A DNA stretch of 40,209 nucleotides from contig JAIDZC010000033.1 of assembly GCA_029057785.1 (NCBI GenBank), forward strand, positions 1 to 40,209, read 5' to 3'. The number at the start of each line of letters is the position of its first letter. Position 1 is the first letter of the stretch. Positions 28,983 through 40,209 of the stretch are shown one piece after another. Both the position numbers and the translations under genes were made by a program. This DNA comes from Anaeroplasmataceae bacterium (GTDB taxonomy: Bacteria; Bacillota_I; Bacilli_A; Acholeplasmatales; Anaeroplasmataceae). A model generated the notes under the pieces. That model did not search any database and was not told where the DNA came from. It saw nothing but the letters and a program-made list of their open reading frames with translations.

Positions 28983-29058
28983 TGGTGCCGAAAATAGGGA
29001 TCGAACCTACGACCTACGCGTTACGAGTGCGTTGCTCTACCAACTGAGCTAATTCGGC
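28983..29058 (-). tRNA. tRNA-Thr (anticodon CGU), CCA encoded
   Basis: 76 bases folding as a cloverleaf: acceptor stem GCCGAA paired to TTCGGC, D-arm GCTC/GAGC, anticodon loop CTCGTAA (anticodon CGU, reads ACG), T-arm with TTCGATC, and encoded CCA. Two stem positions do not pair: T7 against T66 at the base of the acceptor stem, and A31 against C39 at the foot of the anticodon stem. It has its own promoter. Confidence 0.93.
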
Positions 29059-29412: not shown

Positions 29413-29904
29413 TTAGTCTGGCACATAAGGATGTAATTTCATCCAACTTTTTAATAGCGATTTTAAAGATTTTAAATTATGTTTCTCTTTATATATAGCA
29501 CCTATCATTGCTTCTACTGCTGTTGCAATATATTTATGTCTATTATTGTTTTCACTTTCGTTATTTTCATAATCATAGTCATTAGGTAAATTTTCATCTT
29601 TAGAATCTTTCATAATATGTTTTAATAAATCATATTTTTTTGCAACGTATTTTACAAGATACTTGTCCGATTCATAATGAGCTCTCTCTTCAGTTAATTC
29701 CTTACTTTCATCTAATAAAATTTCAGTATAGCAAAACTTTATTAATGCATCACCATATGTCGCTAAATCCGTATTAATTTCTCCGTCATATTCTCTCCTA
29801 TTTATTCGTTGAAATTCCTTTTTATAAGATGAATCTGTCAAAGCTCTTTTCACCCAACGAGATGAATTTTTTTCCGCTAACCGTACTAAAAATATATCTT
29901 CCAA
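29413..29904 (-). CDS. Divergent RNase III-domain protein
   Basis: 163 residues, a single RNase III-like helical domain with no dsRNA-binding domain. Core 1, LATYGDALIKFCYTEIL, aligns with the LEFLGDSIL signature; core 2, RHKYIATAVEAMIGAIY, aligns with ADTVEALIG. By this alignment two metal-binding acids remain (D52 and E131) and two are replaced (A48 and T128), so catalysis is uncertain. A charged, Asn-rich insert (about 103-122) precedes core 2. The start is TTG at 29904, seven bases after GAGGTG. It lies 71 bases after RhuM with no promoter or good terminator between, so probably co-transcribed with it. Confidence 0.7.
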   Translation of the reverse strand: MEDIFLVRLAEKNSSRWVKRALTDSSYKKEFQRINRREYDGEINTDLATYGDALIKFCYTEILLDESKELTEERAHYESDKYLVKYVAKKYDLLKHIMKDSKDENLPNDYDYENNESENNNRHKYIATAVEAMIGAIYKEKHNLKSLKSLLKSWMKLHPYVPD

Positions 29905-29975: not shown

Positions 29976-31040
29976 TTACTCCTTCTTGTCATCTTTATCT
30001 TTTTTTACATGCTGTTCTAATTCTAATAAATACTTATCAAAATCAGACATAAACAATTTATCTTGAATTACTCTGTACTTTTCAAATTCTGTTTCAGCAT
30101 GAAGTTTAGCAATTTCATTAGATACACTTCCTGCATCTTTTAAAAGACCATATTCAAACATTTCAATAAAAGAATTTAAACGTTTTTCCCAATCTACCAT
30201 TGTTAAAGGAATTTTTCTTTGAGCCATGCTTTCAGCAAAATCTAAATATGCAGTAACCATTCTATTTAATTGCCCAAGTTCAAATTCGCTTAAATAATTC
30301 TTAGCAATTACAACATCTGATTTTTGGATTTTACCATCAGGTGCATCCTTCCAAGTAGTAAGTCCCATATGCTCTTTAGATGCATCTGCTCTTGCAACTA
30401 TAAGTTCTGCAGCAGTAAATCCATGAATGGCATAATGCATCTTATTTTGAACGGTCGCATAAAACCGTTTTGTACCTAAAGAATCTTTATCATAGTCAAT
30501 TGCTGTTGCATACAAATCAGTAATCTTCTGATAAAACTTTCTTTCAGATGCACGTATTTCACGAACACGCTCTAATTGTTCTTCAAAATATTTATCAGTA
30601 AGATATGTCCCCCTGATAAGTCTTTCATCATCCATTACCCAGCCTTTAATTGTGTATTCAGATGCAATTTGATTTACCCATTTACGAAATTGAACTGCTC
30701 TTTCTGAATTCACCTTAAATCCAACAGCAATGATCATTTGAAGATTATAATGAACTATTTCTCTATTAATAGTTCTTTCACCTTCATTTTGAACTATTCG
30801 AAATTTTCGAGTAGTTGCCTCTTCTAATAACTCACTATCAGAAAAAATCTTTTTAATGTGATAGTTGATAGTATTAGGCTCAACATCAAATAACATACCT
30901 AACATTTTTTGTGTTAACCAAATATTCTCATCCTCATATCTCACTTCAACATTTTGAATTTCATCTCCTATTGAAGCAACATACGTAAGATATTCTGCAG
31001 CAGAACTTCTAATTGTTATTTCATTATTTTTCTTTGCCAT
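29976..31040 (-). CDS. rhuM: Virulence RhuM family protein
   Basis: About 354 residues. N-terminal winged-helix-like region (VRYEDENIWLTQKMLGMLFDV, FRIVQNEGERTINREIVHYNL), then the RhuM core MIIAVGFKVNSERAVQFRKWVNQIASEYTIKGWVMDDERL, and a C-terminal helical part with SDFDKYLLELE. The family is common near restriction systems and on mobile DNA; biochemical function unknown. I start at 31040 (MAKKNNEITIRSS) because GGAGG lies six bases upstream. The frame stays open for 25 more codons to 31115; that stretch reads IETEFVEFKE, which resembles the start of AlbA_2-domain proteins but has no ribosome binding site. Confidence 0.85.
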   Translation of the reverse strand: MAKKNNEITIRSSAAEYLTYVASIGDEIQNVEVRYEDENIWLTQKMLGMLFDVEPNTINYHIKKIFSDSELLEEATTRKFRIVQNEGERTINREIVHYNLQMIIAVGFKVNSERAVQFRKWVNQIASEYTIKGWVMDDERLIRGTYLTDKYFEEQLERVREIRASERKFYQKITDLYATAIDYDKDSLGTKRFYATVQNKMHYAIHGFTAAELIVARADASKEHMGLTTWKDAPDGKIQKSDVVIAKNYLSEFELGQLNRMVTAYLDFAESMAQRKIPLTMVDWEKRLNSFIEMFEYGLLKDAGSVSNEIAKLHAETEFEKYRVIQDKLFMSDFDKYLLELEQHVKKDKDDKKE

Positions 31041-31135
31041 TTTAACCTCCACATTACTAATATAGTAAAGAGCATTTTCTTTAAACTCTACAAATTCAGT
31101 TTCAATAAATTCCATATTATCATCTGCTTAGACTC

Positions 31136-31164: not shown

Positions 31165-31195
31165 GTACAGAGTGGAAATACTTTATTAAATTATA

Positions 31196-31227
31196 AAAGC
31201 CCAATTCAATGTGTGAACTGAGCCTTT
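31196..31227 (-). terminator. Terminator of the restriction operon
   Basis: AGCCCAATTCA (31198-31208) and TGAACTGAGCC (31214-31224) form an 11-pair stem with some G-T pairs. On the minus strand TTTTATAATTT follows. It lies about 35-60 bases after the Res stop. Confidence 0.75.
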
Positions 31228-31259
31228 ATTTAAAGCACCCTAATCTCATCAGTTTTATT

Positions 31260-34200
31260 TTATATAGAGTTCATACAATCCAATAAATCCTTATATTTAG
31301 TAATATGCTGATATTTCACTTGCGAAGTAGATATCTTATTAAATAACTTTTCAGCGCATTCTATTTTAGCTTTTTCTACTCCTCTCAACTGCATAGAATC
31401 TAAAGATCCTTTAGTTTCTGCTAAGAAATAGATATGTTTTACAGAACCTTCTTTAAAAGCGATTGCCCAATCAGGACTGTAATTTCCTACTGGAGTAGGA
31501 ATATAAAAACTCCTAGGCATTTTAGCATAGACTACTACTTCATCTGCTAAATCCAAATCCTTAGCTAGATTTATCTCTATACCTCTGTCCTTATCCCCAT
31601 CTACAAAAACGAAATCTCTAATATGTTTTGAAGATTTAAATGCTTTTTTAAAATCAACAGTTAACTTAGATTCATTAAATATATTACTATCAAATTCTCC
31701 TTCTATTTGATTATAAGTAACATGTTCAACAATAATTGATGCTTTTTGTTCATTTATCATTTTTGAAACTTTATTTATAAATTCTTCTGGATTATTTTTA
31801 TACGAACTAAATTTTAATGCTGAGATTCCTTTTAATATTTCAGCTATTGTCTTTCGAGTTAAAGAGGTTTGTGATGAAATTTTACCTAACAAATCATAAA
31901 CTACATTGCTATTAGTATGAGTGTTCAAATCTTTTGTTACTGTCTTTGTTGCTTTAAATGAAACACCATTTGTAATTTCATCAACATTCATTATATCTTT
32001 TTGTGTACCACTAGATAAAGTATATGATAGTGTAGTAACAAAAAGTTTTTCATCTATTTCCTTAATGCAATTTTTAATCAATTCATTTGAATCAAAATCT
32101 ACATAATAAGCATATTTATGGTTAATAAGTTTCCATAATGCTTGAAACTCTTTTTTATAGAAATTATCATTTAATTTATTATCTTGCACTTTAGATTTAT
32201 GACCATTTTCTATAAATGCATCTAATGCTTTATCATCATAAATAGATTGCATAAGTTTAATAGTTATCTCTTGAAGATTTGAAATATCATCAGGAAAATG
32301 AACAAGTGTATTTTTCTCTAAATCTTGTTTAAATTGTTCACTCGGTTTGTCTTCTTCATCAATATAGTCATTCTTAATTAAATATTTATAAATGATTGAA
32401 GCTTGTTGTAAAGTTATTGCAGTTTCAACTCCATCTAGCATAATCTTCTTTCCAATAAAGAATTCTTTTGTAACTTTAGTTGGTCTATCATAAAGATTTG
32501 ATTTCATTTCAGTTTGTAGTCCTTTAACAAAATCTTCATAAGAATCATTTGCCACTACCGTTAATAAATTCATTTTATGAACATCAAAATTAGGAATTGT
32601 AGAATCCATTCTTTCTCCTGATGAATTGACACACAATCTTAATCCTCGCCCCACCTCTTGTCTACGTTGGACATTAGAATCACTATGCTTTAAAGTACAA
32701 ATTTGAAATACATTAGGATTGTCCCATCCTTCCCTTAAAGCAGAATGGGAAAAGATAAATCTGGTAGGTTCATCAAATGATAACAATCGTTCTTTATTTT
32801 TTAGTATTAAATCATAAGCAGAAATATCATCCGAAATATCACTACCTCTAATAGTTGAAGAATCACATTTTCGTCCTTTTTTATCTATAGAAAAATATCC
32901 TTGATGTGTTGCAGCTGCATCTATAGATTTTAAATATTGGACATAAGGTGTGTTGAAGATGGTTATATAATCATTTACTATATGATTGTATTCTTCTTCA
33001 AATATTTTCCCATAAACTCCATTAATTTCGTTTCCTTCATCATCATATTGACGATACTTAGCAACCTCATCAATAAAGAATAAGGATAGAACTTTTATAC
33101 CTTGGTTAAATAGTTCTTCTTCCTTTTCTAAATGAGATATAATAGTTTCTCTAATTTGAATTCTTCTTATATCTTCTTCAAATACATCTCCATAGGCCAT
33201 TCCTTGTTTTAAAGTTTCTCCATTAATGAATGTTACAGTATCATTATATGGATTAATATCATTTATCACAAAGCCATTCTTATATTGTTCCATTTCTTTG
33301 GATTCTTGATAAAGATTGTCTCCCACTTTAAGAATTCTTGTTTCACGATTAATTTTAGCATTTTTATATTGAATTTCTAATTCAATCTTTGCCATTGGTG
33401 GTTTATCTGGGCTAATGATAATCTTTTCTAAATATAAGTATCCATTAGTTCCTCGCAAATGATTAATAGCAAAACCTTTCACTTCTATCTTTTTTACTAG
33501 TTTTTTATTAAATGCATCTAATGCATCCAAAACATAAATTAAGTTATGTTGATTTTTATGTGTTGCTGAAAAATTCATAGAGAACAATGGATTAAATCTC
33601 AAAAGCGATTCTTGTGTAGCAGTACCACCCATTTTTTGTGGTTCATCCAAAATGAGAATTGGTCTATTCCTTGCAATAACATCAATAGGTCTTCTAGATT
33701 GAAATTCATCTAATTCCTCGTAAATACGTCTAGCATCAGCACCACGAGCATTAAATGCTTGTATATTTATAATCATTACATTAATAGAATCACTACTACT
33801 GAAATGCTCTATTTCATCAAGTTTTTTAGAATTATATATAAAGTATCTTGCCTTCTTGCCATAGGAATCCATAAAGTGTTCTTCAGTCATCTCAAATGTC
33901 TTTTTAACACCTTCACGAATTGCAATACTAGGAACAACAATTATGAATTTAGTAAATCCATATTTTTGATTTAATTCAAACATAGATTTAATATAAACAT
34001 AAGTTTTTCCTGTTCCTGTTTCCATTTCAATATCTAGTTCACAAGAACCAAGTTTATTACATAAAGAAGCCGATTCTTTAATATCAGATGAGCGTTGTAT
34101 TTCTTTTATATTAGATAACAATTCCATATTTGTTAGTTCTAATGATGGATTTGCATATCCCACTAATTCTGCATCATCATCAACATACTTAATCGTTTCT

Positions 34201-34367
34201 TGCATATCATCCATATTAAATATTGTTCTTTGCAAGAGAATTTTTTCTACATTTCCTCGATCAATAGAGTAATCAAAACTAGATTTATATGGCTGTCCTT
34301 TGAATACTCTTGTAATTGCCTCAACAGCATCTGTTTGATATTGTTGTATTTTAAATTTAAATTTCAT
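31260..34367 (-). CDS. res: Type III restriction enzyme, Res subunit
   Basis: 1035 residues. Superfamily 2 helicase/translocase plus nuclease. Walker A METGTGKTYVYIKSM (K121), motif II LILDEPQKMGG, motif III-like NFSATHKNQ, motif V FSHSALREGWDNP and motif VI QRRQEVGRGLRL. C-terminal PD-(D/E)xK nuclease: SPDWAIAF (D966) and FLAETKG (E984, K986). All are intact, so an active translocating nuclease is expected. With Mod it should cut DNA with head-to-head unmethylated sites. GAGGTGTAG precedes the ATG at 34367. The stop of mod is 11 bases upstream. Confidence 0.96.
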   Translation of the reverse strand: MKFKFKIQQYQTDAVEAITRVFKGQPYKSSFDYSIDRGNVEKILLQRTIFNMDDMQETIKYVDDDAELVGYANPSLELTNMELLSNIKEIQRSSDIKESASLCNKLGSCELDIEMETGTGKTYVYIKSMFELNQKYGFTKFIIVVPSIAIREGVKKTFEMTEEHFMDSYGKKARYFIYNSKKLDEIEHFSSSDSINVMIINIQAFNARGADARRIYEELDEFQSRRPIDVIARNRPILILDEPQKMGGTATQESLLRFNPLFSMNFSATHKNQHNLIYVLDALDAFNKKLVKKIEVKGFAINHLRGTNGYLYLEKIIISPDKPPMAKIELEIQYKNAKINRETRILKVGDNLYQESKEMEQYKNGFVINDINPYNDTVTFINGETLKQGMAYGDVFEEDIRRIQIRETIISHLEKEEELFNQGIKVLSLFFIDEVAKYRQYDDEGNEINGVYGKIFEEEYNHIVNDYITIFNTPYVQYLKSIDAAATHQGYFSIDKKGRKCDSSTIRGSDISDDISAYDLILKNKERLLSFDEPTRFIFSHSALREGWDNPNVFQICTLKHSDSNVQRRQEVGRGLRLCVNSSGERMDSTIPNFDVHKMNLLTVVANDSYEDFVKGLQTEMKSNLYDRPTKVTKEFFIGKKIMLDGVETAITLQQASIIYKYLIKNDYIDEEDKPSEQFKQDLEKNTLVHFPDDISNLQEITIKLMQSIYDDKALDAFIENGHKSKVQDNKLNDNFYKKEFQALWKLINHKYAYYVDFDSNELIKNCIKEIDEKLFVTTLSYTLSSGTQKDIMNVDEITNGVSFKATKTVTKDLNTHTNSNVVYDLLGKISSQTSLTRKTIAEILKGISALKFSSYKNNPEEFINKVSKMINEQKASIIVEHVTYNQIEGEFDSNIFNESKLTVDFKKAFKSSKHIRDFVFVDGDKDRGIEINLAKDLDLADEVVVYAKMPRSFYIPTPVGNYSPDWAIAFKEGSVKHIYFLAETKGSLDSMQLRGVEKAKIECAEKLFNKISTSQVKYQHITKYKDLLDCMNSI

Positions 34368-34378
34368 GTCTACACCTC

Positions 34379-36277
34379 TTACAATACCTTTATTACTGTA
34401 CTAGGTGAATACGTCTTAAATATTTGCTCATTATTAATTCCAACACTATCGCTACCAAAAGAAGAATTTTTAAATACTGCATATAGTGGTTGTAATTTAG
34501 CAATTTCTACAATTGCATCATTTGTCAAATTCATATCAAAGCAAGCGACTAAATCATTATCATTTACACAATAATACTTGGTTCCATTCGCATTCTTTTC
34601 TTCTATTTTAGAAGATAATAAGACACCTAATTCTAACATTACTTGGAATAATAAGTCTAAATCATTTCTATCATGCTTAATATTATCCACTGTAACATCT
34701 AATAAATTTTGTTCTAACTCTGATGGATTGTAATAAACATCATTCATATTTGATGAATCTAATTTTAAAACTCGGAAACCAGTATCTAAATCTTGTGTTG
34801 TAAGAGGATTCTCATCTTTAATTTTTTTTGCTGCTCTACAAATTCTTTCTTTACCAATCTCACATATATTTTCATACCCTACCTTATAGGCCTCTGATTT
34901 TTCATCACAAACTTCTGGTAATTGAACCATGATAAATCTACGATTGCCATTATCTTCTGCATTTAACTGCATAACAGCATGTGCAGTGGTTGCAGAACCA
35001 GAGAAGAAATCAAGAATTATCCCATTTTTATCATTTAAAATTTTAATAAGAAAAACCATTAATTCAAGAGGCTTTGCAAAATCAAAAGGTATTCCAAATG
35101 TTTTTATCAAATCTGCACCACGCCTATTTATATAATCATTTAAAATATTTCGTGGTTGTGTTCCATTTTCTTGTCTTTCTATTAAATAACTCTTAGTATA
35201 CAAATTCCAATGAGCTTTTTCACCAGTTTCTTCATCAATTAATGGAGATGTATTAGTTTTTTTAAATACGATTCTGCCTTCTTTTTTCCATTTGTTAAAA
35301 GTCTCTTCATTTGCTCTCCATGGCTTATTATCTGGAGTATTAACTTTCTGACCATCTGGGCAAACTATTGGATACCTAGATCCGCCATGCTTTAGACCCG
35401 ATTGAAAAAATGCTACATCATCTCTGAAATATTCTCCTTTATGTATTCCTTCTATTTCAACTTTCTTATACAAAGAAGAGTCTACCTCAACTTTAAAATG
35501 CGGTAATTTGTTAATATTTTTCGCATAACAAATAACATAATCAAGACTTTCAGCAAAATACTCCCCCATATTACTTGCAGTTTTTGCTACTCTTGTCACA
35601 AAAGAAATTCTATTTTTTTCACCTAGAAGTTCATCACAAAGTTTTATCAAATTAGACACTTCGCAGGAATCAATAGAGATAAAAATAACACCATCCTCTG
35701 CAATAATATCTCTTGCAATTTTCAATCTTGGATAAATCATATTTAACCAATCTGTATGGAATCTACCATTGCTATCTAAATTTTTTTCTAAACGATTCCC
35801 TTGCTCATCATAATAGTCAGTTCTATCTGTATATGCTTCACTATTCATTGCATATTCATCATTATATATAAAATCATTTCCTGTATTATAGGGAGGATCA
35901 ATGTATATCATCTTGACTTTGCCAAGATACGTTTCTCTTAAAAGCTTTAATACATCAAGATTATCTCCTTCAATGTAAAGATTCTGAGTATTATCAAAAT
36001 CAACACTTTCTTCTTTTACAGGTCGTAATGTTGCATTGATTTTTTGATTGGCTAATAGAATTGATTTTTTCTTATCAGGCCAAGTCATTTGATATCTTTC
36101 TTTTTTATCATCAATTATTTCATTGGATAATTCTTGTTTTAAGATATCAAAATCAATCCCTAAAGCAGTCTTACCATCTTCCACGCACTCTGTTACTGCG
36201 TTAGGAAATAATTCTCGAATTTTTTTTATATTTTCTTGAGTCAAGTCCTTTGTAGACATAGTTAATTTTTCACTCAT
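34379..36277 (-). CDS. mod: Type III DNA adenine methyltransferase, Mod subunit
   Basis: 632 residues. Catalytic motif IV DPPYNTGNDF (127-136) comes before the SAM-binding motif ILDFFSGSATTAHAV (425-429 for FSGSA), the beta-class order of type III N6-adenine methylases. The region between them (about 250-400) should hold the target-recognition domain; the recognised site cannot be predicted. GAGGTAAAG precedes the ATG. It overlaps the DUF4391 gene by eight bases. I saw no simple-sequence repeat that would make it phase-variable. Confidence 0.96.
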   Translation of the reverse strand: MSEKLTMSTKDLTQENIKKIRELFPNAVTECVEDGKTALGIDFDILKQELSNEIIDDKKERYQMTWPDKKKSILLANQKINATLRPVKEESVDFDNTQNLYIEGDNLDVLKLLRETYLGKVKMIYIDPPYNTGNDFIYNDEYAMNSEAYTDRTDYYDEQGNRLEKNLDSNGRFHTDWLNMIYPRLKIARDIIAEDGVIFISIDSCEVSNLIKLCDELLGEKNRISFVTRVAKTASNMGEYFAESLDYVICYAKNINKLPHFKVEVDSSLYKKVEIEGIHKGEYFRDDVAFFQSGLKHGGSRYPIVCPDGQKVNTPDNKPWRANEETFNKWKKEGRIVFKKTNTSPLIDEETGEKAHWNLYTKSYLIERQENGTQPRNILNDYINRRGADLIKTFGIPFDFAKPLELMVFLIKILNDKNGIILDFFSGSATTAHAVMQLNAEDNGNRRFIMVQLPEVCDEKSEAYKVGYENICEIGKERICRAAKKIKDENPLTTQDLDTGFRVLKLDSSNMNDVYYNPSELEQNLLDVTVDNIKHDRNDLDLLFQVMLELGVLLSSKIEEKNANGTKYYCVNDNDLVACFDMNLTNDAIVEIAKLQPLYAVFKNSSFGSDSVGINNEQIFKTYSPSTVIKVL

Positions 36278-36899
36278 TTTCTTTACCTCTTAATAAATCT
36301 TCTTTTTCTTTTAGTAAAAGCTTATATTTTGCATTCAATTCAAATTTATTTTTAGATTGAACTTCTGTAGCAATTGCTTGTTTTAATTTTTTCATTTTCA
36401 AATCATATTTGAAAAGCTTATCATTTCTAGTTAAATATTCTATTATTGATTCATTTTCCAAAGGACTATAATCTAGAAATTCAGATAAAATGAACTTATA
36501 TATTTCTGAAACATTTTGAAGAAGCGGTAATTCTTTATCTTCATCATTATTCCAATTTGTCATATAATATTTGCCTTTGAATTTGTTATGCTTATATTCA
36601 AACAGCATTAATTTATAGTCTTCATGTTTTAAATAAAATATAATGTTATTCTTAAATTTGCTATCAAACTCTTTTAAAAATTGCAATGGTATTATTCTTT
36701 CTTTTAGTCCAATTTCGAATATGAATAATTCCACATTATCTATGCAATTTAATGTTTTAGGAGATAATAAATTGCTTAAAATTATAGAATTAATTAGATG
36801 AGATTCTTTTCTTGCTTCTTTGCTTGCATTGATTTGCTTTAAAATATCTGACAACTTATATTTTTTATCAATTCTTGTTTTTGAAGGTAATTTATACAT
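36270..36899 (-). CDS. DUF4391-family protein
   Basis: 209 residues, no membrane segment, no known catalytic motif. Layout matches DUF4391: N-terminal YKLPSKTRIDKKYKLSDIL, a central beta-rich part (VELFIFEIGLKERIIPLQFL, NIIFYLKHEDYKLMLFEYKH) and a basic C-terminal helix (LNAKYKLLLKEKEDLLRG). The family is found between helicase and methylase genes of restriction-like clusters; its function is not established. GAGGTAACT precedes the ATG at 36899. Its position, coupled by overlap to mod and 12 bases after the helicase gene, argues for a shared complex. Confidence 0.82.
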   Translation of the reverse strand: MYKLPSKTRIDKKYKLSDILKQINASKEARKESHLINSIILSNLLSPKTLNCIDNVELFIFEIGLKERIIPLQFLKEFDSKFKNNIIFYLKHEDYKLMLFEYKHNKFKGKYYMTNWNNDEDKELPLLQNVSEIYKFILSEFLDYSPLENESIIEYLTRNDKLFKYDLKMKKLKQAIATEVQSKNKFELNAKYKLLLKEKEDLLRGKENE

Positions 36900-36911
36900 T
36901 TTAGTTACCTC

Positions 36912-39900
36912 TTATTTAATCACTAAGAAAGTAATTAATTCAAAATCATCTAGCCCTTTGATTTCATTTTCAAATAAAACACTTGAATCTCCATTAAACA
37001 GATTTTCTAAATCATTGGTTTCTTTCGTTTGAATAATAGATTCAATGCATCTATCTAGTAGTTGACTGTACTTATCCATTTTATATCCATCTTTAGTTTC
37101 TTTATTAAATTGTCTACATAAAGATTGTATTGGATTTACTTCAAATTTGCACATACTCCTAAATATATCAAGTATCTTTTTTACATCCATATGTGTATGA
37201 ACTACATTTCCCTCTTCATTCAAATAAACTAAATAATATGGATGTAATCTATTCTTTTTGCCAATATTAATCTCATTATTTCTATTTTTTAAAACATATA
37301 TAACCCCTTTAGGAATATCTAGTTCATCATTATGCTTTACAATTGCATATATACCATTTGGAATATTCTTGGGCTCTCCATTTTTCTTGATATAAGAAAT
37401 GACATCCATTCTAAATTCATTTAATCCTAAATCTGTAATTGTTATTGTTCCATCTACATCTTCTAAATCTTGTAGTTTTCCATCTCGAAGTTTTTGTAAT
37501 TGTTCTTTTCGGTATTCTAAATCGGGTGCATCAGGATTAATAATATTGTCATCGCCTGTTGCCGTTGTATTTACTAAAGTCATTCTATTTTCTACACGTG
37601 CATTTAAATTAATGTATTCGTCCAAAGACACATTAGGCCAAAAATTAATTAGGCGTATAGATTCATTCTTACTGCCTATTCTATCAATTCTACCAAATCG
37701 TTGTACAATTCTAACTGGATTCCAATGGATATCATAATTGATGCAAATATCACAGTCTTGTAAATTTTGTCCTTCACTCACACAATCTGTTGCTATTAAG
37801 ATATCTATATTTACATCTTTATCTTCAGGATAAATTAAATCTCTTTCTTTTGACATTGGAGAAAATAAAGATAATAATCTATCTGTGTCTTTATTCCCCT
37901 CAATAGTTGCAGCATTTCCATTTGTCGCACCCTGAATTCTTGCGGTATGTAGTCCATATAATTCAAGCATTAATGGTGCTATATTATCGTATAAATAATT
38001 AGTTGTATCTGCAAAAGCAGAAAAAATCAAAATTTTTCTATTATTTAAATTAAAAGGTTTTTCAATTTTACTTTGAATTATTTCAAGTAATTTTTGTAAT
38101 TTCAAATCCTTTTCTGGAGTTATCCATGACATCAATTCATATAATAACTCTAAACTTTCTATATCTTTTTCAAGATCCTTTTTCCATGCTCTTAAATCCA
38201 TATCAGATAATTCAATTTTAATTTTACCTATTGTCGAATCATCACTTAAGTCAAAATCTTCATTCTCTAAATCTTCTTCTGTAATTTGTTTTCCTTCAAA
38301 CGAAAATTCAGTTTTATTTTTTTGAAAACTAATGATTTTATCTAGTGTATCCGTATTGTAGTTTTTAATTTTATTTAAAGTTATTCTAAAAGACTCTACG
38401 CAAGATTCTAAACGTTTAAGCATATTTATAGTCATTAATTTTTGTAATGCTTTTTCACGATTAATTTGCTTTAATGTAGTAGCACCAACTTTAGTATCAT
38501 ATAGTTCCTCATATTTAGATTTCTTACTATCTAGAATGTAGTTCATCGGAGCATATACAGCCATTGTTAATTTCATTAATATCTCATAAATCTCACGATA
38601 TTCTAAAATATCTTCTTTTTTAGCAATGTCGCAATAATATGATAAAGGTTCTAAACGTTTTGGAAACTTCCCTATTTCTGAAATATCATAATATTTAGAT
38701 ATATGCTTTCTACTTCTTGCAATAGTTACATTATCTAATAGAATTGAAAAATCAATATCCAATTTGCTAATTAAATCGCTAGATTTTCTTTCTTCTTTTG
38801 GCAGTTTTGTCCAATCATTAAAAACTTGTTGAGCATTTCTTAAAATAACATCTACATTTTTTGTTGTATCTAATTTTTGATTGAATTCCTCATAATCATC
38901 TCCATAAGCCAGTGCTAGCTGATTTTTCAAATCATTAAATCTGTTATTTACAGGTGTGGCAGACAACATTAATACTTTTGTTTTCACACCTTCTTTTAAA
39001 ACTTTATTCAAAAGAAAGTCATATCTTGTTTCTCTATCTCTATAACTATTTGCATTTCTAAAATTATGAGATTCATCAATCACTATTAAATCATAATTAT
39101 CCCAATTAAATTGAGATAAATCATGGCCATTACTGTTTCCTCTTGTTCTACCTAAGTCCGTATGAAATAAAACATCGAAATGAATTCTATCTTTATAAAA
39201 AATGTTTGATTTAACATTATCTCTATATTTATTCCAGTTGTTTGCAAGACGCTTTGGAGTCAAAACTAATATATTCTTATTTCTGCAAGCATAATATTTC
39301 ATAACTCCTAATGCTGTAAATGTTTTACCCAAGCCTACAGAATCTGCCAAAATACAACCATTATATTTCTCTAACTTATTAATTACACCAATTACTCCAT
39401 CCTTTTGAAATTGATATAGTTTATTCCAAACAAGCGAAGTTTTAAAGCCTGTTCCCTCGTTTGGCATATAATCCTCTGACATTATATCTTCTAAAAATTC
39501 ATTAAAAATATTATATAATGTCACAAAATAAACAAATTCGGGTGAATTATCTACATAAGCTGATGATATATAATCAATGATGTTTTGAGTTACATCCACC
39601 ATTTTTGTTTTATCATGCCATAAAGCATCAAATGAATCACAAAAAAATTTAGAATATGAATATTCTTGATTTTTAACAATTCCTTGAAGCATCATATTGT
39701 TTTTTTCATATCCTAAATCAATAGATGTAAATCCATTAATAGGAGTATATGTAGTAATCATATCTTTGCTAGTAACTGAAATGAAATTTTGTACATTGCC
39801 TTCTGAAACATTAGATTTAAAAATAACCTTATCTTTAATCCACTCTGCACATTCTTTTGCTATTGCTTTTTGAGATAATCTGTTTTTTAATTTAATTTCA

Positions 39901-40172
39901 AATTCTGTTCCATAAAGAGAGTGTTCTTCTATCCTTTTAGGAATATAATATTCTCTCTTCTCTTTTTTAAATCTATCCTTAACACTCTGATCAACAAATG
40001 TATTTGTTGGAAATATAAATGATAACTCTTGAATATTATTAAGTTCCTCTTTTAATGCTTCAAAAGCATAAATAGAAAAATAAGAGGCAATTATTCTCAC
40101 CTTAGATCCTGTAAATATTTCTTGTTTCAAATCATCGCCTAACAACTTCAATTTATTATCCAACAATTCCAT
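36912..40172 (-). CDS. SNF2-type helicase with degenerate PLD-like N-terminus
   Basis: About 1086 residues. Residues 1-200 look like a phospholipase D-like module (SKVRIIASYFSIYAFEALK, LSFIFPTNTF), but the HxK catalytic motif is not visible. The helicase part has motif I ADSVGLGKT (276-284), motif II VIDESHNFR, motif III MLSATPVNNR, then IATDCVSEGQNLQDCD and VQRFGRIDRIGSKN. This is the SNF2/HepA-like layout of translocases in defence clusters. I start at 40172 (MELLDNKLK), five bases after GGGAGG; the frame extends nine codons upstream into the GTAC repeats. First gene of the operon with DUF4391, mod and res. Confidence 0.93.
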   Translation of the reverse strand: MELLDNKLKLLGDDLKQEIFTGSKVRIIASYFSIYAFEALKEELNNIQELSFIFPTNTFVDQSVKDRFKKEKREYYIPKRIEEHSLYGTEFEIKLKNRLSQKAIAKECAEWIKDKVIFKSNVSEGNVQNFISVTSKDMITTYTPINGFTSIDLGYEKNNMMLQGIVKNQEYSYSKFFCDSFDALWHDKTKMVDVTQNIIDYISSAYVDNSPEFVYFVTLYNIFNEFLEDIMSEDYMPNEGTGFKTSLVWNKLYQFQKDGVIGVINKLEKYNGCILADSVGLGKTFTALGVMKYYACRNKNILVLTPKRLANNWNKYRDNVKSNIFYKDRIHFDVLFHTDLGRTRGNSNGHDLSQFNWDNYDLIVIDESHNFRNANSYRDRETRYDFLLNKVLKEGVKTKVLMLSATPVNNRFNDLKNQLALAYGDDYEEFNQKLDTTKNVDVILRNAQQVFNDWTKLPKEERKSSDLISKLDIDFSILLDNVTIARSRKHISKYYDISEIGKFPKRLEPLSYYCDIAKKEDILEYREIYEILMKLTMAVYAPMNYILDSKKSKYEELYDTKVGATTLKQINREKALQKLMTINMLKRLESCVESFRITLNKIKNYNTDTLDKIISFQKNKTEFSFEGKQITEEDLENEDFDLSDDSTIGKIKIELSDMDLRAWKKDLEKDIESLELLYELMSWITPEKDLKLQKLLEIIQSKIEKPFNLNNRKILIFSAFADTTNYLYDNIAPLMLELYGLHTARIQGATNGNAATIEGNKDTDRLLSLFSPMSKERDLIYPEDKDVNIDILIATDCVSEGQNLQDCDICINYDIHWNPVRIVQRFGRIDRIGSKNESIRLINFWPNVSLDEYINLNARVENRMTLVNTTATGDDNIINPDAPDLEYRKEQLQKLRDGKLQDLEDVDGTITITDLGLNEFRMDVISYIKKNGEPKNIPNGIYAIVKHNDELDIPKGVIYVLKNRNNEINIGKKNRLHPYYLVYLNEEGNVVHTHMDVKKILDIFRSMCKFEVNPIQSLCRQFNKETKDGYKMDKYSQLLDRCIESIIQTKETNDLENLFNGDSSVLFENEIKGLDDFELITFLVIK

Positions 40173-40208: not shown

Positions 40209-40209
40209 A

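Follow-up and report, generated by a model that had tools for sequence, protein, structure and literature searches.

The 40,209-nucleotide contig JAIDZC010000033.1 of an Anaeroplasmataceae bacterium (GCA_029057785.1), analyzed whole and hereafter called the window, carries an operon in which genes for an SNF2-family ATPase and a DUF4391 protein precede the mod and res genes of a type III restriction-modification (RM) system. Judged by sequence comparison, this four-gene set is a genuine, widespread variant of type III RM. A preliminary description of the window had read the locus as an expanded type III system, and this holds up, as DUF4391 and the SNF2 protein almost never occur away from mod and res. 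Textbooks present type III enzymes as machines of two subunits. A large share of the Res subfamily nevertheless carries the additional pair (22 of 37 Pseudomonadota and 10 of 14 Bacillota genomes with a Res of the window's type). In the literature that we searched, which lay mostly outside subscription journals, we found neither a description of the four-gene form as such nor an assay of its two additional proteins. The role of the pair, once known, would show how restriction deals with sites that are badly spaced or coated with protein, or how the host is spared.

The four-gene locus and its recurrence in other genomes

The operon consists of four complete genes on one strand, followed by a hairpin:

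36912..40172, minus strand: SNF2-family ATPase, 1086 residues (ATG at 40172, stop at 36912; Pfam SNF2-rel/Helicase_C)
36270..36899, minus strand: DUF4391 protein, 209 residues (PF14335, 36.7 bits against a gathering threshold of 29.9)
34379..36277, minus strand: Mod, type III beta-class DNA methyltransferase, 632 residues (Pfam N6_N4_Mtase)
31260..34367, minus strand: Res, type III restriction subunit, 1035 residues (Pfam ResIII and RE_endonuc)
31185..31231, minus strand: terminator hairpin of the operon, then a T-rich stretch (-18.4 kcal/mol, z -8.1)

These coordinates bear out the compact layout described earlier, with a gap of 12 bases between SNF2 and DUF4391, an overlap of 8 bases between DUF4391 and Mod, and a gap of 11 bases between Mod and Res. 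Purine-rich ribosome binding sites, which had also been noted, precede all four starts (GGGAGG for SNF2 and AGAGGT for each of the other three). The terminator proposed after res is supported because a stable hairpin (31231-31185; none of 200 shuffles was equally stable) is followed by T-rich sequence, although a scan for consensus terminators listed none 3' of res. No phase-variable repeats were found in the operon among the run types searched.

Homology and motif content show that the locus holds a complete type III RM system, as had been stated, with EcoP15I-like Mod and Res. Mod matches EcoP15I Mod (PDB 4zcf_A, E 5e-59; PADLOC MTase_III, 699 bits), retains its DPPY (DPPYNTG) and DFFSGSATT motifs and has a variable target domain (TRD) at about residues 215-415. 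Res matches EcoP15I Res (PDB 4zcf_C, E 7e-71; PADLOC REase_III, 1000 bits), with an intact Walker A motif (ETGTGKT) and C-terminal nuclease motif (PDW...ETKG). Two sequence features of type III membership are thus present, namely a beta-class, EcoP15I-related Mod and an adjacent Res that joins an SF2 ATPase to a PD-(D/E)XK nuclease. In enzymatic terms, type III systems methylate an asymmetric site on one strand and cut ~25-27 bp from it. Two sister mods in other genomes (L021:8133-10022 and L022:4974-6808) share 99.5% identity over their last ~209 residues and ~65% ahead of there; the L022 mod frame shifts at the border where its identity to the L021 mod jumps.

When the SNF2 alignment was run against 84,980 species genomes, at least 583 confirmed stretches emerged, and we inspected the best 80, which span many phyla. 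All four genes were detected in 69 of the 80 loci, and in every one of these they stand on one strand in the order SNF2, DUF4391, Mod, Res; the fixed linkage for which the preliminary description had proposed to search is therefore real. The remaining 11 loci reach contig ends, except for L087 (mod and res broken) and L100 (only a mod fragment), and across the 80 loci the clade-specific SNF2 stood apart from DUF4391, mod or res only at contig ends or with broken genes.

The same association was recovered starting from DUF4391. Ten of 392 genomes of the Bacillota phylum (phylum name inferred) had DUF4391 above the cut-off, and all 10 hold a window-type Res (p 5e-17). The nine other DUF4391-bearing Bacillota loci all read SNF2, DUF4391, Mod, with Res at the same locus save in G290, where mod is shortened and Res is on a separate contig. 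DUF4391 was present in 23 of 398 Pseudomonadota genomes, 22 of which also hold a window-type Res (p 3e-25). As far as the contigs extend, these loci have SNF2 on the 5' side and Mod/Res on the 3' side; the sole exception is G416, with DUF4391 at a contig start and no Mod or Res seen downstream. The SNF2 protein is also encoded by 109 PLSDB plasmids and 5 phage records, and 88 of 5426 E. coli genomes gave a match.

The SNF2 and DUF4391 proteins

The helicase assignment of the first gene was confirmed, but a PLD-like N-terminal domain had been overlooked. The protein comprises a degenerate PLD-like region (residues ~1-200) and helicase lobes at ~250-420 and ~690-840. A Pfam scan gave no match within the first 250 residues; the best family over the entire length is PADLOC C3a139 'HKD+Snf2' (377 bits), and the N-terminus aligns end to end with five HKD-intact relatives that are not associated with DUF4391 (hhalign 96% probability, E 3e-9). 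The best structural match of the N-terminal part of an AlphaFold (AF2) model (mean pLDDT 73.6, with some low-confidence loops) is SauUSI (Z 13.4, root-mean-square deviation 3.9, 148 residues), and further PLD-fold matches include NgoAVII R and BfiI, among others. Neither the window protein nor 80 relatives have the H-x-K-(x)4-D or GSSN motif at the aligned position; an HKD pattern search of the relatives returned only five scattered matches, which we interpret as chance. These alignments and models show that the SNF2 N-terminus has a PLD-like fold without the catalytic triad. Because HKD and GSSN are gone while the ATPase motifs are intact in 80/80 relatives, the protein appears to be a pseudo-nuclease on a motor.

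The AF2 model of DUF4391, built from a 69-sequence alignment (pLDDT 94.1), consists of an alpha+beta core and, at the C-terminus, a helical hairpin that bears a conserved E-K-Q-F-N-R-K motif. The family is basic (median isoelectric point 9.2), and no conserved catalytic constellation was found in the 69-sequence alignment. Foldseek against PDB and BFVD gave zero matches at E <= 0.001, and the VIA-align matches span almost solely the helical hairpin, a common arrangement, leaving no convincing structural match. PADLOC-DB 2.0.0 contained no match for DUF4391, and in the literature searched it was mentioned only in one enrichment table (PMC7784981). Apparent fusions were considered as a functional hint and rejected, as the L100 and L125 open frames yield DUF4391 alone; a DUF4391 fused inside the long Mod of the Eco86II system was likewise rejected (hhalign probability 0.2%). 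In one table 4 genome (L055) the genes are reordered as mod, res and SNF2, followed by a 242-residue protein (L055:13481-14206) with a DUF4391-like C-terminal hairpin and no Pfam match.

Relation of the pair to mod-res and its possible roles

The SNF2-DUF4391 pair is an add-on, because the same Res also has relatives in two-gene systems. The other 15 of the 37 Pseudomonadota genomes with a window-type Res have no DUF4391, and plain mod-res loci were confirmed in wider regions (L056, L151, L152, L237, L241, L244, L246 and L248); L057 and L238 also lack the pair and have a damaged mod. Two-gene and four-gene forms are interleaved in the Res tree (9 label changes with all loci, 6 with verified loci, 5 with intact mod only), a tree built by a quick method, with some long branches, from which gain and loss are not distinguishable. 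As Res is found in plain two-gene systems, the pair depends on mod-res and not the reverse. The classical two-gene systems (EcoP15I, EcoPI and the E. coli 042 asnT locus) share the adjacent, homologous mod and res but, unlike the window, have neither SNF2 nor DUF4391. E. coli holds both the four-gene and the two-gene form, so the two can be compared head to head within one species.

We compared pairwise distances over 61 complete loci by partial rank correlation. The strongest correlation was between SNF2 and DUF4391 (0.62), followed by Res and Mod core (0.45), SNF2 and Res (0.41), DUF4391 and Mod core (0.26), and SNF2 and Mod core (0.01). Gene adjacency fails to explain the SNF2-Res correlation, since one of the two genes opens the operon and the other closes it. 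This pattern suggests an interaction chain DUF4391-SNF2-Res-Mod. In the 15 pairs of loci with the most similar SNF2 (87-99% identity), the Mod target domains were merely 17-35% identical. Target domains are thus exchanged with little change in SNF2, DUF4391 and Res, so it is not the accessory pair that reads the target. This disfavors sequence reading as the means by which the pair would widen the range of targets, an effect suggested earlier.

The preliminary description took the coupled helicase and DUF4391 protein to add a function. Murray et al. 2021 (PMC8259958) had already reported an extra, helicase-like gene in two type III systems, Eco86II and BspHIV, where it lies 5' of mod; their count of "more than 500 genomes" is not separable by helicase type. 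The Eco86II helicase was dispensable for methylation, and the active enzyme fraction contained no helicase peptides (PMC8259958). In E. coli NCTC86, the sequence around fim holds the probable Eco86II locus, which has the order SNF2-mod-res with no DUF4391 and encodes a Mod of 1040 residues. As in the window, an SF2/SNF2 ATPase gene lies 5' of mod and res. The Eco86II helicase, however, is DrmD-like (663 bits to the DrmD model), has no PLD-like domain and belongs to a different subfamily with only motif-level similarity to the window SNF2. In the window, unlike in Eco86II, DUF4391 intervenes between SNF2 and mod, and the operon is therefore not a three-gene system of the Eco86II type. Nor does the window SNF2 score as a DISARM DrmD (NCBIfam equivalog, 145.9 against a cut-off of 610). 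In Pseudomonadota, L245 and L247 carry a DrmD-like SNF2 upstream of mod, with Mod and Res of the window's subfamily. Together with Eco86II, this means that the place 5' of mod is taken up by two different SNF2 motors among related type III systems. A DrmD-like SNF2 also replaces SNF2-DUF4391 before mod in L154, on a related Mod/Res backbone.

It is quite possible, though short of probable, that the locus encodes a type III RM variant in which a nuclease-dead, sequence-blind SNF2 translocase and a DUF4391 adaptor act through Res. Mod alone would provide specificity and host protection, and Res would do the cutting. The SNF2 motor would be an ATP-driven double-stranded DNA translocase working through Res, its dead PLD domain may serve DNA or protein binding, and DUF4391 may bind the motor as an adaptor or DNA-loading subunit. 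The pair might strengthen type III restriction where plain Mod2Res is weak, possibly by displacing DNA-bound proteins or by uniting enzymes from distant or badly oriented sites. In a bolder and rather unlikely version, a two-site type III enzyme that depends on diffusion would be made into a translocating, type I-like restriction machine by SNF2-DUF4391 as a transferable motor module, with the dead nuclease domain as its DNA or protein clamp, and evolution would have filled the slot 5' of mod again with a DrmD-like motor. Several points weigh against a translocase acting through Res. The dispensability of the Eco86II helicase for methylation and the lack of its peptides in the active fraction imply that such motors may not aid cutting, and numerous members of the Res subfamily sit in mod-res pairs that manage without SNF2-DUF4391. 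Correlated distances are indirect evidence for contact, and DUF4391 has no recognized fold or conserved catalytic site.

The linkage of SNF2 to Res, and not to the target domain, would also fit self-protection, in which the pair strips or resets Mod-Res on host DNA that has just been replicated or lacks full methylation and so limits self-cleavage (restriction alleviation). Mot1-like removal of DNA-bound proteins is a known activity of the SNF2 family, and the module is almost never found without mod-res. Two-gene systems with a Res of this subfamily nevertheless survive without it, some of them in E. coli, and we regard such a role as somewhat unlikely. We are more doubtful still of a separate effector or backup defense that hits invaders independently or upon Mod-Res inhibition, with mod-res as the partner under its guard. 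Guard genes do occur in restriction loci, such as PrrC in EcoprrI (reviewed in PMC12707154), and nested Schlafen, RhuM, Fic, HEPN and GmrSD genes are present in many four-gene loci; SNF2-DUF4391, however, is constant and fixed in order, unlike such cargo, and the ATPase is the only catalytic site found in the pair. To the idea that SNF2-DUF4391 is just a popular insertion beside mod-res, with no functional tie, we give almost no credence. The entire region is a variable tRNA-linked island, as this would have it, but the constant order across phyla, the correlated evolution, the near absence of DUF4391 on its own and the linkage counts contradict it.

The shared architecture, the PLD fold and the C3a139 match could instead point to a second ATP-dependent restriction nuclease, like SauUSI or the Type-2 BREX-related HKD nuclease-helicase, and helicases of this kind are known (PMC12839542). 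SauUSI also joins an N-terminal PLD-type domain to an SF2 ATPase, but its nuclease is active and it carries an SRA domain, whereas the window SNF2 has lost the catalytic motif and no SRA was detected in it. Like the window, the Type-2 BREX-related systems combine a methyltransferase and a small DUF protein with an SNF2 helicase that carries a PLD-like domain; those systems, however, are reported to use HKD as the active effector and include DUF499 and DUF3780, where the window has a lost HKD, type III Mod/Res and DUF4391 (PMC12839542). Pfam identified neither the DUF499 ATPase nor DUF3780 among the window's four genes or the neighboring RhuM-family gene, although no model-based search was aimed at either and the upstream side lies off the contig. 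The 'HKD+Snf2' label likewise implies a nuclease, but the DUF4391-linked clade is without HKD. With H-x-K...D and GSSN lost throughout this clade and retained by the five relatives outside it, we rejected an HKD nuclease role, and the reading as a second nuclease is highly improbable.

Island setting, cargo genes and upstream regulators

Comparison with congeners suggests that the operon occupies an island site beyond a tRNA gene:

29976..31115, minus strand: RhuM-family gene, possible associated cargo (PF13310, E 7e-107)
28983..29058, minus strand: tRNA-Thr(CGU), edge of the variable island holding the operon (from the congener comparison)

Five congeners (L256-L260) share the surE-tRNA-Thr arrangement, and past tRNA-Thr, to the end of the window at 40209, most of the sequence differs. 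Adjoining RhuM in this island is a 163-residue protein (29413-29904, minus strand) with a ribonuclease III domain (PF00636, E 4e-12), which was not detected in the compared regions of the five congeners. The RhuM gene sits 3' of the operon terminator in the window and between mod and res in L021 and L022. Promoter-like sites precede it (31217-31190 and 31164-31136), and such sites occur at chance frequency in the region.

The spaces between the four genes contain open frames of at least 100 residues (87 in total, 83 of them on the operon strand) in 44 of the 80 loci, mostly between mod and res. Among 78 scanned frames, the cargo families included Schlafen-AlbA_2 (11), 23S-IVP-like (7), RhuM (6) and Fic (5), along with GmrSD, YhcG, HEPN, Abi_2 and Zeta.

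Because the contig stops 37 bases 5' of the SNF2 start codon, any upstream regulator of the window operon is out of view. E. coli copies have a regulator directly upstream, of the WYL or small helix-turn-helix kind (L145:10096-11001; L148:10156-10335; L149:9249-9413). The one in L149 is annotated as MAD1-like, and upstream regulators are likewise present at other defense loci.

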